Source: Spirogloea muscicola (taxonomy: Eukaryota; Streptophyta; Zygnematophyceae; Spirogloeales; Spirogloeaceae). Taken from it: a DNA stretch of 64,000 bases. The stretch spans positions 263,877-327,876 of the forward strand of contig WELB01000005.1 of the NCBI GenBank assembly GCA_009602725.1, written 5' to 3'. Below, piece after piece: positions 13,361 through 23,300 of the stretch. The stretch's first letter is position 1, and each line of letters begins with the position of its first letter. Below the pieces are notes generated by a model. The model was not told the origin of the DNA. It was given only the letters and a program-made list of their open reading frames with translations, and ran no database searches. The position numbers and the translations under genes were made by a program.

Positions 13361-14355
13361 CCATCACCAGAGGATGCAAAAGACGCCAAAGGACGCTTTC
13401 ACCCCAAGGTCGCCAATGCAAGGCCAGGTCGTCGAGATCATTGAGACGACATAATGAGTGGCTCATCGTTGACTCTGGGCTATGTGAGCCCCTTTCACCA
13501 CAACATCCTGAAGTCATGGCTGGCTGAGCTGGTCCTTGTACTAAGTTGAGCTATTTCTGTGTTGAGTGTGACGAGCTTCTACACCCCAGGGGCTAACCAA
13601 CCCTCCCAGCTTCTGTCAAGTGAGTCAATCCCTTCATGCGGCGGCATCAGCCACCATGTCACCACTTGCAGCGCCACCAAGGGCCGCATGGTGCACCTGC
13701 AATTGCAAGCTTAATGTCGGCACTGGGATTTGAAGTGTAACAAGCTGCCATGGCCAGAGGGCTTGGGCATGCTGGCGAGCCCACACACAAGAGCTTCTGG
13801 AACAGCCACTGCACTAGCTTGCTTTGCTGGAAGGCCTGCAGAATGGCGAGAGGCCTGGAACAGGAGCCCGTTGCTAAGCAACTGGTGACCAAGCTGGTGG
13901 CTGCAGCAAATGCGGCCAAGAAACTTTTGCAGCGAGCCCTCAACAACAATTAGCGGAGATTTGCAAAGCGATGTCCTATCCTGCAAATCCTGCCAGACTA
14001 GACAAAAGCCATGCTAGCGACACGCTGCTCGGTCACGGCTAGCGCCAAAGGCTCAGATGTGTAGTGCACCTATGCCAATCCAAGGAATGTCCTACCGTCT
14101 CTCGGCTGTAGTCGAAGTTCCTGGGGGGCCCCACTTCAGCCACCGCCGGCAGGTTGACCAAACAGGACTTTCTGAGGCCAAGCGAGAGACCTGCACCTGC
14201 CACGTTGTCACTGCCAGGGGAGGCATCACCAGAGGGGTCGGCTACGGCTTCCTTGAGTACCTACTACTACTTATCGATCCTAATGTTCAGCACCGCGGCC
14301 ATCAATGACGTCCCAGAATGGGCCCTGCTAGGCTGTCAGCATGCAGTGACATTCG
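13361..14355. other. Intergenic, no recognisable gene
   Basis: Small open frames only (for example 13659-13986 minus, 13750-13953 plus). None has a recognisable domain. The right end is presumably the 3' UTR of exportin-1, whose stop is at 14356. Confidence 0.35.
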
Positions 14356-17300
14356 TCAGGCATCCACCATCTCGTCTTGTATCTCTGCGGGTGCGATGAG
14401 GCCAGGAATGGCCAGCATGCGCTGCCTCTCAGCCTCTCGCTGGGCTGCTGCCTCCTCGGCATACAGGTCCTTGTTGTCCTGCACACAAAGAGTGCGCAGC
14501 CAAGGACGACTAAGCATAACTTGGACGCACTCTGGGACCAAGCAATGAAGCAAGGACTGCACGAGCATGTTGACTCTTGTGCCCCAACTCTTGCCAGCAT
14601 GTCTTGGTGAAAGTACAGTAGTAATCGAACCTGCACCCAAGAAGCAGCTGCATGCAAGGACTCATTGATAGACAAGCTCAACCCCTGCACGGTACCTTGT
14701 CCGAGAACTCTTTTGATTGCACGAGGAAGTCGCGCAGGTGATTCTTAAAGGCAGCGAGGTCATGCTTGACCTCAAAGCTGCCCTTGACAAATGCAGCCAC
14801 CTCAATGGGAGTCATGTTGGGAAAGGACTCGCTCAGCAACTTGATTGTGTAGTCAAGTACAAAGGCAGCATTGTTTGCAAAGGCCGTCGGCCCCAACTTA
14901 GCAACATCCCATAGTGGCTGCGTGAGAACATCAGAATCCACCTGCCAAACAGGAGTTGTCCCAGGTAAAAATTGGCAAAGGCAAGTGGAATACCAGCGAC
15001 TGGAACCTGCAAGCCTCTGCATGTTACTGGACTCCATAGACAAACAAGCCAGCTCTTAACAATCTCCTGGGTTATTTCCATAACAAAGTCTACAAAGTCT
15101 GGACACACCAGGCAGAAGAGGTGCTGCAAGATTAAGGTATGAAGCTTGAAGCCAGGCTTGTGAAAAGAGTCCGTCAGCACAGCAAAAATTTCCTGCTCAA
15201 TGGTAAGGAAGTACGTCTGGTGGAACTGGTTGCAAAACTCCGACGTCTGCAAGCAGGGGTAAAACGAAAATCCTTGACATGAGCGAGGTACAAAGAGCTT
15301 ATCTGAGCTGCTCTATGTCCATCAAAGTCGGGCTTTCTGATAGAAGCTTCTCTGGATGACCTCCAGTAGCCTACTCAGATCTAAGAGGAAAAGGAGGTCC
15401 CGATCTGCTCACTGACACTTGGCTGTCCAGATAGACATATAGACAGACCGACAGACCTACCTGGAAGTTGGTGAGTATATCCAGCAGCAAGTCCGCTGGG
15501 GCATACTGCAAGGTCATTATGTACGGACCACGTACAAGGACCTCAGCAGACAGCTGATAGAAGCCTCTACAACTTCTAAGTACACCTCCAGGTGCATGCC
15601 CAAGGTGATCATGGCGTGCACCCATTAGAGTGAGGTGTTATGGAAGCTGGTGGAAGGTTGACTGAGGAATCGGGGTCTGAGCTATATCTCGAGATTGAGG
15701 AATTTACTTGTTACTGACCTGGAATTGGGTAAGGATCTCTAATAGGAGGTTGAGGCCTGTCTCTGCAACATTCCTTTCTGTGTGGCGGAATGCCCAGAAG
15801 ATGCTGTCCATCACAAGCTTCAATTGCTGCGAGGCCAAAACAGACAACGACCCGCTCAATGTTGAGAAGCAAGTCAATGAGCAGCTATGCGCAGCAAGGA
15901 GTACAAAATGATAATAATGATCATGTCATAGCGGCATGCCTGCATGCCTTCAAACTTAAGAGACGCACACACACCTGGCTGGAAAGAGTGAAAAGTGCAC
16001 GGAAGCAATGTGAGGCAATGGCTTTCAAGAGTGAGAAGAACTTGAGCCTGTGCTCAGGGTAATCCTCAAAGTTCGTTGTGATCATCTGGTGTAATGACAT
16101 CAACAGTGTTAGCCATGTCAGAAGCACTTGAAGATGGGACACCCGCCAAGTACTAGACAGCAACAGCCAGGTGCTTTTAAGCTGGGTAAGACGAAGTTTC
16201 ATGCATGTCACGGGCTGTGCAACTGCAACCTCCTCAAGAAGATCCTGACCCCTGCTTTGAGCACTAGATGGATGCCTAGAAGCGATAGTTGCTCTACCTT
16301 GAGCGTGCACTCAAAACAGGCCTCGAAAATGCGGGGGACCTCATCAAGCATTGCAACTTTCAACCTGCAAGTAACAGCCCTTCCAGTGAGCCAAGCCTGC
16401 CAAATCTCCACACGTCATCTCGCACAGCACCAAAAACCAAAACATCAACAATGGGACTTGGAGGACGTCGTAAACAAGACCCTCATATTGACAAAGTAGC
16501 CCAACACTTGTATATACTGCATGCAAAACAAGCGGTAAGACTGCCCTCACTTGTTGATGATGGTGGCAAACAGAGAGAGGACTTCGGATTCCCTTGCATC
16601 AGGCACATTGCGCGCGTAGTCTCCAAGGATGGGGTCCATCATAGCCGGCACAAATTGTTTTGCAATGAGCTCGGGGTCCTCGGACTTGTCCACAAACGTC
16701 TCAATCAACTTCAAAGTCTCCCGCTTGACAGACCTGCAACAACGCCACGATAGCCAAAAATGATGACAATCTGCACTGATGACTTGCAAAATAAATTTAT
16801 CATCGCATGCTGCTGCACCATCTTCGGCAAGCAGGACTTGCTTGAGGCAGGATAATGTGCAGGCTGATGAGGCTATCAGTGCTGGCATTTTTGTTAGCCA
16901 CCAAAGGTACCTTGTGCTTCCAAGAGCCCAAAATGATAGCAGCAACAGTAGCATCGACAATATTTGGCACAAGCCAGCTGATGTCCATTACCTGAGAAGC
17001 TTGACAAATGACGTTTTTGAAGCGTAAGGCCCTCCTTCAGCAACACTACTTGAGATGAGCTCGCTGTACATCCTGCACAAAATTGAGCAGCAAAACGACT
17101 TATAAGACTTAATTAGAAACAAGCTCCACCACAGGCATAAAGCTTCCAATGACCTGAATATTACACAACTATGTAGGAAAGTAACAGTCAAGAATGACAG
17201 GAACCTGGTAGATCATTCCAGACTATACGATCATGAAATGACAGCAATAGGGTGGACTATCAAATGACCAAATTGTATGCTGGCATATGCTGTGCCAGCC

Positions 17301-20300
17301 TACCGGTATATATTGAGCATGTCAAGATAGATGAGTGTGATCTGCGTAAGGAAAGGCTGTCCAAGTGCACTAGCCACGCTTGTGTTGGTCTGCATCCGCC
17401 GAGCATGCACATAGACACGTGTCAGAAATCTGCCTTAGTCATTGAGCTGCAATAGTTGCATCGACATGATTAACTGCTGACAGTTGAAGGAAAGAGTTGT
17501 CCTTGATATGCACCTGCAGAATGTTCAGAATTGCTCTGATGGAGTCGGGCAACTTCAGAAACTCGACATTTTGCTTAGCCTGTTCAATAATCTGCGCCCA
17601 TCTCTGCAGATCACACACCAAGGACAGAGGCAGGATGTGACTGATGCAGTTTGTGCAGTGGCAGACAATGCCAACTGGGCGGTTACTGGAGACTCATACT
17701 TACAGACAGGACATGGGCTTGCTAGTAATAAGCTTGGCATCAAGAGACTGCTACAGCAAGCTTCTTGGAAAAGCAAGATAGTCTCATGCAGTGCAAAATT
17801 TGAGACTGACCACGTTGGGCGGCTGCATCAACTTCTGAAGATACTCGTCACGCTTCAGCTGATCAGTTTCTGCTTGGATCATATACCCAACCTGATAGCA
17901 GCAAGTAGACTTGATGAGAAACTTGACTGGCCTGCTTGATAGACTAAGAGGCCAAAAATCCTCTCACCCCACTTGATTAAACTGCACAAATTTGAAGTGG
18001 CCATTCCAAGGACGTACACGTATAGTGCACAAATGGCAAGCTGCACTTACAGACTCGTAGAAGGTGTGGATCTGATGTGCCTGCAGGTCAAGAATGGTTG
18101 TTGACAGCCCTCGTAGAAGCTCTAGTATGAAAGGCTCTGTCTCACCCACCTGCACAAAGAAGCACATGATTAGAAGCACGCTAGCAAATCTGGTGTTGCA
18201 CAATGCGATGGCGAATTCGACTTCCATACATATGCTGGTTGAGTATATCAAGCACAGAAAATGGTTTTGCACATCTGACAAGTGAAACCGTGGCATACCT
18301 GTAGTATCACAAATTTGCGGCGGCACTTCTGTACAATCTTCAAGAAGGTGTCACACGCCATGTCCTTTTATTTGCAAGAAGCAGGAGGCCTGTCAGTATA
18401 GCTGCCAGCCTAGCGCACAGCACAGGCACGCGTACATTGCGAGGCGAATCGAAAAAGAGGCAAATCTAGCTATTTGGAAACAATTGCTCACACATTGAAA
18501 GTTAAGGCACGGTCAACATAAGCTCTCAATCAATAAAGTAAAATGGCTCTCATTTACAAAAAGCTGCCCTCAGAGGCCACGGTGAAGAGATAATGCACAC
18601 ACCTGCACCCCAGGGTGAGTCTCGTGCATAAATTCAAACAGCTTGTTCACAACCGTCTTCAAGAATTTCCAATGAGCTCGCAAGAATCTCGGATACTGTC
18701 CAACGACATACCTGCAAAAGCAGACCACAACAATGAGCATGGCACTATGTGGCAGCAGACTTTACATCTTCACAGTGTTCTTTGCTGCAGCAAATGTTCC
18801 TGTTTGCCACTTAGGGCAGTAAATTTAGCATAAATTAGACAGAGCAATTTTGACATGTACGACAGCAGATGAAAGCTCTCCGGCTTCAATTTGCGCCTTT
18901 TCAAGGTCCAATGGCCTAGCCTACATGATGTCACTGGCGACCACCGCCTTATGATCCTTTCCCTTGACTGCCTTTGATAAGGTGAGAAGATCTTGGACCA
19001 CTTGCACCAAGAATCGGCTCTCCTGCATGACAAGTAGCAAGCACTTGGACGTCTCTCAAGAACTAGTCAAGCAGAGGACTCTCTTGTGTGGACAAGACCC
19101 GACTCGACCCCAGGTCGCCCCACTTTGCTTCGTACATGATGTTGCTGGCAATGACGGCCTTGTTGTCCTTCCCTCTTGTGAATTCACAGAGATTCAACAG
19201 GTCGCGAATCACAGTCACCAAAAAACGGTTCTCCTGCATTGCGCAAGAAGTCCAGCATTCCATGTGACAGCTGCCCAACATCTGCTGACTAACTGGGCAG
19301 ACACGAGCTGCACACCGTGTGGTCTCTGTGCCATGGACACACCCGTGCAGCCTTTGACACTTGCATCAGCTTCAGACCCACCCACTGACATCGCAAGCAA
19401 TACGACATTCACAAACACACTTCCTGGGAGTAGGCTGTCAGAATAATTGTGTTGACTGACCTGATCCTCCACCATAGAACCAGAGATGGAGCCAATCGCC
19501 CAGCACAGAGTGTTCAGGTTATTCCACGACCATTCATCTCCATTCAGCTGCTTAGTCAGCTTCTTGAGCATCTGCAAAAGTTTAGCAATGTTTGTGCTTG
19601 TAAGTATCGGCAGGATGCTTCCCAATCTCATCGTCGCCAACTGTAAGGACCTCCCTCTTGATCACGGCCTGAAAGGCATCAAAAGTACATCAATGCTTAA
19701 CTAGCTGTCCTTTAGTATGTGGTTGCAAGGCCATTCCATCACATGATTTAACACTATCAGTCATGTGCTGACCTGCTGTTCAGTGTCCTCGTGGTCTAAA
19801 TGTGAGAGGTAGATCAGCGTCTCTCTCATTATCTGCAACATTACAACGTGAAGACAATACAACTGAGCACTTACGACTACACCTCTCTGCTCGCACTGCC
19901 ATCTTAAAGCCTAGGAGAGCAGAGAAATTGGTTAATACATCAAGCATTTGATCGATGAAGCAACACTCAACAACAACTCTACCTTGTACTGGACAAGAAC
20001 GTCATTGTCTTTCATTGTTTCTCGGACTATATTGCCATTTTCGTCCTCAACTATCAAAACCTCCTCTGGCTTGGCCATTCTACTGATCATGAGGAGTCGC
20101 AGCTTAGACATTGGCCCCGAGTACAGCTGCTTTCGTGGTGACATCTGCCCGCCAATCCCGTTCGTCATGGGTGCACCAACTACTAAGCCCACCTGCGAGC
20201 CCACAAGTACAATAATACGTGACTTAGTGTTGTTGCTTCCTACTGCCCTTGCAGTATTTGCAGGTTTGCTCCCTTTGCACAATCTCCATGTCATGACTCA

Positions 20301-23300
20301 GTAGGAGACATGTTTCGCTACTCTCACTGAGGCAAGTCACTGTAGAGCGTACAAGGATGATAGCAGGTGTTCAAATGGACGCTTTGATCTGTGGATACTG
20401 CTGTCTGCAAAACAAACAATGCTTTGCCCGTACTCATGATGGCTGTGTGCATGCTAATAAACTGTGGCGTTTCAAAATTGGAGCAAGTAAAGACTTGCCT
20501 GCAACCCAAGAGGTGTTGGTTGCAATGTTGCTTCCATACTGCACTCTGACTGGAACAGCTCGCAGACAAGCACATTCCAGTAGTCTAAACACACCTGCAC
20601 ACAGCTATCAACACTCTCCTTGTAAGATGCCAAAGAAAATATGCCAAGACTTGTTGCTGTCCAAACACACTTGACAAATGGAGTAGAGGAGCATGTGTAC
20701 CACCCATTTGCACAAAATAGAGGTGACTGCATCAAATAAAGCTATGGTGCCAGCAAGGTGGGCAATGAGCTCGCTGCAATTCTGACAAAATGATGCTTAT
20801 ACTGACGGAGTATAACCACTGAAAATCAAGAGCACCAACAGCATGCCAATCAAAAGCATAGCTAAGTAGCAAACATCAGAGGGGGTGTGATGAAGACCAA
20901 GCAGCAACTTGGTAATACAGCTTGGCAGATTCAAGCTAGAGTGCAAGATGTACCTTGAAGACCTCAGTGTCCTCCACGTACGAGATATATATGAGGTAGT
21001 CAAGGCCGAATAGGAGGGGCTCTGGTGCTGCTTCCAAGACCTGGATGTGAGCCTGCGGACACAATGCAACACACCTTAGAACCAGCTACTGGAAGCAGGG
21101 AGCTCCATGCATTGAGGTGACACTGCAGTGGACTCATGGAGACGTATATGTACAGGTGGTCGTCCAAAACGTCGGATGCTGACGATTGGAGCAACTTGCG
21201 TAACCCAGAGAAATCTATCATCACGTGCTGCCTTCATTAACACAAAAGCACAACGATGCAAGAGAATACATCCAGAGTTCACAACATGCATATCAATCTC
21301 ACCTTGAAAAAGGACGTGAAGAAGAGTGCAAGGTTCTGAATGAAAGCCTGTGTACATGTACAGCCAGGCACGGCACCAAGCATCAGATGGGAAATGGCAA
21401 AGTAGCAAAGGTAAAGCTAATGGGAGCACTACTGTCAGACTTGTGATTAGCTGGATGCTAAATTACTGCGAGATAGGGAGGTAGATCCTTGACATGCCAA
21501 TGTCACTGCTTGATAGCCCAATATTACCTGATCCTCATCACTGCCTACGTTATAGGCTTCAGGAATATTTGTAGTGAGCGGCAAGATGGCCTGCAATGGC
21601 AGCCAAGAATATGCATCAGCTTTAGGTATGCCATATATCTACAGCTTCTCCACCCGTAAAAGACCAGGGTCTAATGTCTGCAGCAATTGGATGCATAATA
21701 GCTCTCTTGCCTGAAGCTGCTCCATGAAGAACGTGTATAGCTTGGCAAAGTGTGGATTGTAATAGTCGCCGAAGCTGAGAGCAGCCACCTGCAGCAACCA
21801 CCCAAAGGCGAGGCACCTGTTGGCAAGTGATCCTGGGTAGGCATGACGAGAGAATAGGCAGTACATACCCCATAGCAAGTGCAACTTCAACACTGCTGTG
21901 CATTACCCACAGGCCCTACAATCCTTTTGGTGATTGGACGCAGGTATCTTGATGTGGCACTCCATTGCAAAGCATAAGCAAGCCATGTTGTGTATAACAT
22001 AGTCACAAGCTCAGACTCAGAGGAGGACATGCTTTACTCCAAAGTGATTCCCTCTGCGCCCCACGAAGCGACATGCTTGACACGATCTCAAGCCATTGCT
22101 AATACTGAAAGAGCTCACGATAAAATATTCACCTCTGTGAGGCACTGCAATGCAAGATTTCTGTACGCCGGTACGGGGAAGAGTTTTAACAAACTCTCCA
22201 ACTGCAGTGGACACAAGGCACATACAGCAGCAAATCAATATTTGTAACCTGCCATCTTGCTCCATAATCTTCCGCAAGAATGAGAAGTTCCTGTCTACTT
22301 AACCCAGGACAAGAAAACAGCAACACTGTGCATCTCACAATATACAATCCTGACAGCTTCTGCAAATTTGATATCTACATGAGCTCCAAGAAAGGCGGTC
22401 TGACCAGAGTGGACTCAAAAATGTAGCCCAATGGTATCCAAGATAGGAATGCATGCAGTGTGGAGAGCGTCGCCCTGGTCAGTGAGGGCCGCTGCGAGGC
22501 AGCGAGAACATACTGGCAGAGTTCGTGGACCAGCTGGAACTCGCTGCACCAGCAGTGCACACACAAAAGCAACATGGCTGTCACTGCCACAAAAAATCTG
22601 GAACCTGGAGCAGAGGCGCATTCACCAGAGAGAACAGCGGCACATGAGTGCACATGAGTGGCAGCCAGCTTACCTGTTGAGTGATTGTTTCAAGTCTTTG
22701 ATCTTCTGCTGAGTCATCTCTCCCCGCGAGAAGTCAAACACCTCCTCACTCAGGAGCTGTAAGTGGATAAGAGATGGTTGTGAGCTCAATCTCAAGCTAT
22801 GCAGCAAATGGAAGGCATCAATGATTGACTAGACACATGATCACATTGCATGGATGTCAGCTTCTCATGCATATGCAGCCAACTTCTCGAAGTAGAAGTA
22901 CCTTAAGAATGACCATGCAATTTTCACACAGGGTTTCACTGCTCCTTGCAGCTGTTACAAGGTCTGGTATGAAGTTTGGCCAACGTTGAGGCCACTCATG
23001 CTTGAGGACCTGCTCAACATGAATATATGAAGTCATCAGACACAGCAAGCTAAGAGGGCCAGACCCAAATCGACGTCCGACAATGTCAAGAAACTGACGT
23101 CACAGAGGGGGCTGCATGACCCCCATTGCCCAGGACATACTAACTGGAATTACGAATCCTTCGAGCCGCATTCTAAGCAGTACTATCCAGGTTGATGCAG
23201 GACACAAAAACAACAGGTAGGATGGTGGGGCCATCCTTTCATGCCTGGACTAAAATGATGTTGAGTTTGTTGAGGTACAGTCGCTCAGAGCGGAATGTCG

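Follow-up and report, generated by a model that had tools for sequence, protein, structure and literature searches.

The exportin-1 (XPO1/CRM1) gene of Spirogloea muscicola, a zygnematophyte alga of subaerial habit, contains a tandemly duplicated exon whose two versions, A (17A) and B (17B), are probably spliced in a mutually exclusive manner, so that each mRNA would carry either A or B as the exon for one wall of the NES groove. The pair is real, old and maintained by selection, lies at the core of cargo binding in CRM1 and is seen here in one species; while mutually exclusive exons are a known kind of gene architecture, this site for them appears new in the literature searched.

The window, i.e. 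the whole stretch of 64 000 nucleotides that was analyzed, corresponds to positions 263877–327876 of contig C5 within the 153-Mb genome. The exportin-1 gene lies complete on its minus strand with 31 coding-exon positions (Table 1). The deduced protein is homologous to XPO1 over its full length, with 84% identity of the 1074-aa model to a Riccia homolog, and a 157-aa piece comprising the groove aligns to solved CRM1 chains. Searching the genome revealed at least three exportin-1 loci (on contigs C4, C5 and C138), whose resemblance extends beyond the gene itself. By contig number and coordinates, they agree with the EukProt gene models with SM identifiers (s5, s4 and s138). Over the whole coding sequence, the three loci diverge by 0.135–0.174 at synonymous and by 0.0024–0.0036 at nonsynonymous sites. 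This three-fold occurrence fits the recent whole-genome triplication of Spirogloea muscicola that the accessible part of PMC9065682 credits to Cheng et al. 2019. Three introns of the gene are of the GC-AG type (at window positions 23245, 21711 and 20499, the ends of E4, E9 and E13) and are kept as such in all three loci. The acceptor of E19 (window position 18364) reads AAAAG in the window copy and TATAG and TACAG in the other two copies. Just past the stop codon and outside the modelled coding exons, 200 alignment columns on the minus strand (window 14083–14282) are 96.5% identical across the three copies.

Table 1. Features of the exportin-1 locus in the window
Feature	Position	Strand	Remarks
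XPO1/CRM1 gene, start to stop codon	14356..24431	-	spliced model open end to end; 1074 aa in all three loci found
E16, constant upstream exon	19461..19571	-	donor CAG/GTCAGT
Conserved intron stretch upstream of A	19234..19383	-	142/150 columns identical
Exon A (17A)	19136..19233	-	98 nt; plant-like type; Cys528 position kept; human 513–545
Intron A-B	19023..19135	-	113 nt; 111/113 columns identical in three copies; rank 1/31 introns
Exon B (17B)	18925..19022	-	98 nt; Ser at Cys528 position, I521V, E529K; same protein in all three loci found
400-nt conserved block	18888..19287	-	intron 16 end, A, A-B intron, B, start of next intron; 98.8% identical in three copies
E18, constant downstream exon	18603..18711	-	acceptor GCAG/GTATGTC
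Candidate cassette exon X	15461..15505	-	45 nt, in-frame, 15 residues; partial echo of E28 end

The duplication of the exon is real. A and B are adjacent, equal in length, share the same phases (0 in, 2 out) and encode segments with 20 of 33 identical residues; the coordinates, strand, 98-nt lengths, CAG acceptors, GT donors, phases and residue identity given in the original prediction all proved correct upon re-checking. Its argument from the reading frame is likewise borne out by the spliced models. Inclusion of either A or B alone yields an open protein of 1074 aa, whereas inclusion of both or neither results in a frameshift and an early stop. The reading frame is the sole anatomical bar that we see to the joining of A to B, not the 113-nt length of the intron between them. 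In all three loci found, both exons are intact, use the same splice sites and show no amino-acid change between copies, with only two silent differences in A and one in B; the C4 and C138 copies are identical throughout both exons. We also considered unusually weak splice sites at A and B and rejected them, because the donors are the seventh and eighth weakest of 32 and the acceptors the 18th and 13th of 32.

To place the exon in the protein, we employed the alignment to solved CRM1 chains, in which the exon starts at position 515 and the cysteine of the motif DLLGLCEQK is residue 530 of the 1073-residue chain 3gjx_A. Human CRM1 comprises 1071 residues. Removal of the two-residue offset inferred from the chain length puts the exon at human residues 513–545 and the cysteine at 528. 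This offset is confirmed by the excerpted text of PMC7938638, which names DLLGLCEQK as the tryptic peptide with Cys528 and locates the NES cleft between the HEAT helices 11A and 12A. By this alignment, the exon encodes helix 11A together with the first part of helix 11B and thereby a wall of the NES groove in HEAT 11. The predicted model of a liverwort homolog that carries only A similarly has an extended helix, followed by the first part of another, over the exon (residues 512–534 and 536–550), with modest confidence in that region. The original prediction had mapped the segment to human residues 456–488, which is off by 57 residues, and had set it between the HEAT9 loop and the groove; the exon is itself groove wall and holds the position of the leptomycin-reactive Cys528. 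Its description of the differences as mostly surface-type does not hold either, since positions 521 and 528 of the groove wall are among those changed. The corrected mapping strengthens the finding.

Exon B differs from exon A at 13 positions (human numbering 514, 519, 521, 522, 526, 528, 529, 530, 531, 532, 536, 540 and 543). These changes comprise C528S, I521V, an arginine-to-glutamine replacement at 522, E529K and nine others, while L525, K534, K537, A541 and M545 are kept. Residues 522, 529, 534, 537 and 545 are presumably located at the NES groove. In the accessible part of PMC7503480, the groove residues I521, L525, F561, F572, A541 and K568 are named, and of those lying inside the exon, L525 and A541 are retained in B and I521 is replaced by valine. 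Since I521A and L525A are described there as having the mildest effect among the single hydrophobic groove mutants, the I521V replacement alone may do little. The cysteine at 528 is the residue bound by the bacterial CRM1 poisons leptomycin, anguinomycin and ratjadone, and excerpts of PMC7221118 state that its replacement by serine renders S. pombe leptomycin-resistant and that S. cerevisiae, which lacks the cysteine, is insensitive. Judged by its sequence, B would be of this leptomycin-insensitive type, as it encodes serine at the position in all three loci found. The insensitivity of an isoform containing B may nonetheless be partial, because leptomycin can occupy the CRM1 groove without the cysteine according to the available text of PMC4588050. 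The same text describes an acidic loop that aids cargo release and packs near helices 11B and 12B, and the changes of B in 11B might therefore touch cargo release as well.

We next compared both exons to a set of 234 homologs, consisting of the best 120 of 149 and the best 120 of 3886 matches, each minus the three models of this alga; the set is redundant and is made up of land plants and otherwise mostly yeasts. Exon A matches these homologs with a median of 27.5 of 33 residues and exon B with a median of 21 of 33. The original prediction had also suggested looking for a second copy of the exon in other green algal XPO1 genes; among the 234 listed homologs we found no exon B, at most 22 of 33 residues in common with B and no insertion at the exon site. 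In the search for B, the 98% match belongs to the three models of this alga alone among the best 120 of 149 matches, and a shorter query returned no homologue. A transcript-derived XPO1 of this alga was not present among the best 120 of 149 and the best 120 of 3886 matches. Eight of the 13 residues particular to B never occur at their positions in the 234 listed homologs. Position 528 is occupied by cysteine in 126 of them, by threonine in 106 and by serine and valine in one each, the single serine being that of P0016, a solved yeast chain. On the plant side of the list (117 homologs), 116 possess the cysteine, and the exportin-1 of Klebsormidium nitens (P0134) possesses the valine, together with a change of KDN to KAH just after it. 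As judged from this residue, P0134 is possibly a naturally leptomycin-insensitive streptophyte CRM1. In the titles and abstract openings covered by our literature search, which lies outside most subscription journals, no mutually exclusive exon pair in exportin-1/CRM1 is described.

The divergence between A and B indicates that both are read as protein and that the pair is selectively kept. Synonymous differences amount to 20.67 at 21.5 sites (pS 0.96), while nonsynonymous differences amount to 19.33 at 74.5 sites (pN 0.26), a contrast with a Fisher p of 2.8e-9 on rounded counts. As nearly all silent sites have changed and far fewer nonsynonymous ones, the duplication is old and the amino-acid sequence has been guarded. 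When B was allowed to drift neutrally away from A in 20 000 simulated runs, an exon free of stops and still matching A at 20 or more of 33 residues was left in 0.2% at 0.5 substitutions per site, in 0.005% at 0.75 and in 13.6% at 0.3, the last distance being unlikely since the silent sites are saturated.

Conservation extends into the surrounding introns. In the alignment of the three copies, the median of the 31 introns is 73% identical, while the A-B intron reaches 98.2%, the following intron 92.0% (rank 2) and the intron before A 88.8% (rank 4). The chance for three given introns to fall among the top four of 31 is 28/31465, or about 0.0009. The 400-nt block spanning both exons is the best of 15 447 three-way windows (17 043 positions aligned in all three copies), the next separate window reaching 94.5%. 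Its conservation is centred on A and B and fades into the flanking introns without a sharp end. Residual similarity from the duplication is small in the flanking introns, as the upstream value was reached by 112 of 200 shuffles and the downstream value by 18 of 200. In fly and human, introns beside mutually exclusive exons show higher conservation than randomly chosen introns from these genes (PMC6071210, section 3.2), and the conservation of the block in all copies against the 73% of the median intron fits regulated alternative exons. Other origins of the block were considered as well. A repeat was rejected because the genome search found the block at three places only, and an intronic RNA gene because no Rfam match was obtained at E up to 1 in the 901 bases searched. 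An antisense gene was dismissed since neither of the other two copies keeps the 163-aa open frame of the plus strand intact.

These data give good support to mutually exclusive use as the probable mode of splicing: the exons are adjacent homologs of equal length with matching phases, they are frame-incompatible with double inclusion or skipping, and they show selection and conserved flanking introns. The original prediction of such use gains from the frame logic, the purifying selection, the retention in all three loci found and the intron conservation, while its functional placement had to be given up. Under exclusive splicing, mRNAs containing both or neither exon would be frameshifted, carry early stops and be degraded. 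Isoform A would represent an ordinary plant-type exportin with the reactive cysteine, and isoform B a cysteine-free one with a re-lined wall and altered charge at 522 and 529. Isoform B should still export, would show reduced sensitivity to inhibitors that target the cysteine (leptomycin-like polyketides and other electrophiles) and may shift its affinity among cargo signals. Splicing regulators presumably bind the conserved stretches of the introns. A switch based on RNA secondary structure received no support: in simple tests, neither the A-B intron nor the intron upstream of A nor the 749-nt region as a whole showed excess structure (z +0.7 to +1.0, with only 20 shuffles for the 749-nt region), and a simple test for long-range pairing between the introns gave no duplex excess over shuffles.

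All three public models of the gene (P0003–P0005) depict a different arrangement, in which A is followed by a short linker and then by B, via donors downstream of the normal donor of A. Taken at face value, they would mean a tandem translation of A and B that inserts some 45 additional residues into HEAT 11. We consider this highly unlikely, as neither the in-frame donors nor the linkers agree between the copies. Two copies offer an extended-A donor at +37 nt (CGG/GTCTTG), while in the third, where a 1-nt deletion shifts the frame downstream of A, the donors lie at +31 or +55 and the model uses +31; one linker reads YEASGATWGR and another has 12 residues. The public models moreover drop, shorten or extend exons beside the GC-AG introns that all three loci keep, and the lack of any insertion here among the 234 listed homologs also speaks against a tandem protein. 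AlphaFold is weakly informative on this point: the block has a pLDDT of 42–63 in the tandem model (residues 511–630) versus 57–66 in the A-only liverwort control (residues 491–560), which is poorly confident there too. Because the extended-A donors are not homologous between copies, the A+B fusion is most likely a prediction artefact, the predictor's way to retain both coding exons. The three public models further include the candidate cassette exon X, which is absent from the 24 homologs aligned with P0005. The intron hosting X is 90% identical across the three copies (rank 3/31), and X itself shows amino-acid differences between copies. X is a possible second alternative event, separate from the A/B switch.

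Three further readings take B to be unproductive, unused or tied to a particular gene copy. B might be a regulatory (poison) exon, with A as the sole productive exon and A+B inclusion leading to decay that controls the XPO1 level. Poison exons, too, would be in keeping with introns conserved this strongly, and A+B inclusion would indeed create an early stop. For Chlamydomonas XPO1, the accessible text of PMC7534427 moreover reports a regulated exon-skipping event that brings in a premature stop and is said to disrupt the N-terminal domain. A poison exon, however, need not keep its amino-acid sequence, frame or exact length, yet replacement changes in B are far fewer than silent ones, and neutral drift rarely yields such an exon at 0.5 substitutions per site, although it does so more readily at 0.3; we regard this reading as unlikely. 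Less likely still, and in our view highly unlikely, is that the three copies owe their similarity to recent gene conversion and that B is an unused relic. The identity of the C4 and C138 copies over both exons is a pattern that conversion can also make, but all three copies would need to be converted, the block has its centre at A and B and tapers off rather than ending sharply, and a relic would hardly hold its frame, splice sites and residues while silent sites became saturated. Finally, the presence of three loci makes subfunctionalization possible, with different XPO1 copies committed to either A or B. Since A and B are retained in each of the three, with identical use of splice sites and without a protein change in either exon, we deem such a choice per gene copy extremely unlikely.

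If A and B are indeed used exclusively, cargo selection and inhibitor sensitivity of CRM1 would be switchable by splicing. The common view of CRM1 is that of a single receptor whose one groove serves very many cargoes, and Cys528 is the site of its best-known inhibitors. We tentatively propose, as an idea somewhat more apt to be wrong than right, a splice-controlled export receptor in which the cysteine-containing exportin is swapped for a drug- and electrophile-insensitive one with a different cargo preference, possibly in answer to soil-bacterial CRM1 poisons or to oxidative stress in the subaerial habitat. Exon B would also provide a ready-made combination of 13 linked substitutions, already tested by evolution, that is useful for studying the role of the cysteine and of the residues that determine cargo preference. 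The pair adds a strongly conserved candidate for mutually exclusive exons from a lineage that stands close to the land plants.

Pyruvate kinase M and tropomyosin possess mutually exclusive exon pairs that arose by tandem exon duplication, and Dscam is a named example of mutually exclusive exons (PMC6071210). The pair described here resembles such known systems in its adjacent homologs of equal length, the frame incompatibility of double inclusion or skipping and its unusually conserved flanking introns. It differs from them in its occurrence in a karyopherin of a streptophyte alga, in that no RNA-structure signature was found and in that exclusivity is here predicted from the gene sequence. 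With the leptomycin-insensitive CRM1 proteins of S. cerevisiae and of the S. pombe Cys529 mutant, as described in the excerpted text of PMC7221118, exon B shares a non-cysteine residue at the Cys528 position. Unlike these fixed alleles, the algal gene holds a cysteine and a serine version side by side, chosen by splicing if the exons are exclusive, and the serine is linked to 12 further changes. Chlamydomonas XPO1 (Cre03.g146487; PMC7534427, accessible part) is likewise an algal XPO1 with alternative splicing, for which the gene studied here is a candidate; the event there is reported to bring a premature stop and is said to disrupt the N-terminal domain, whereas the one proposed here would be a coding swap in the groove.
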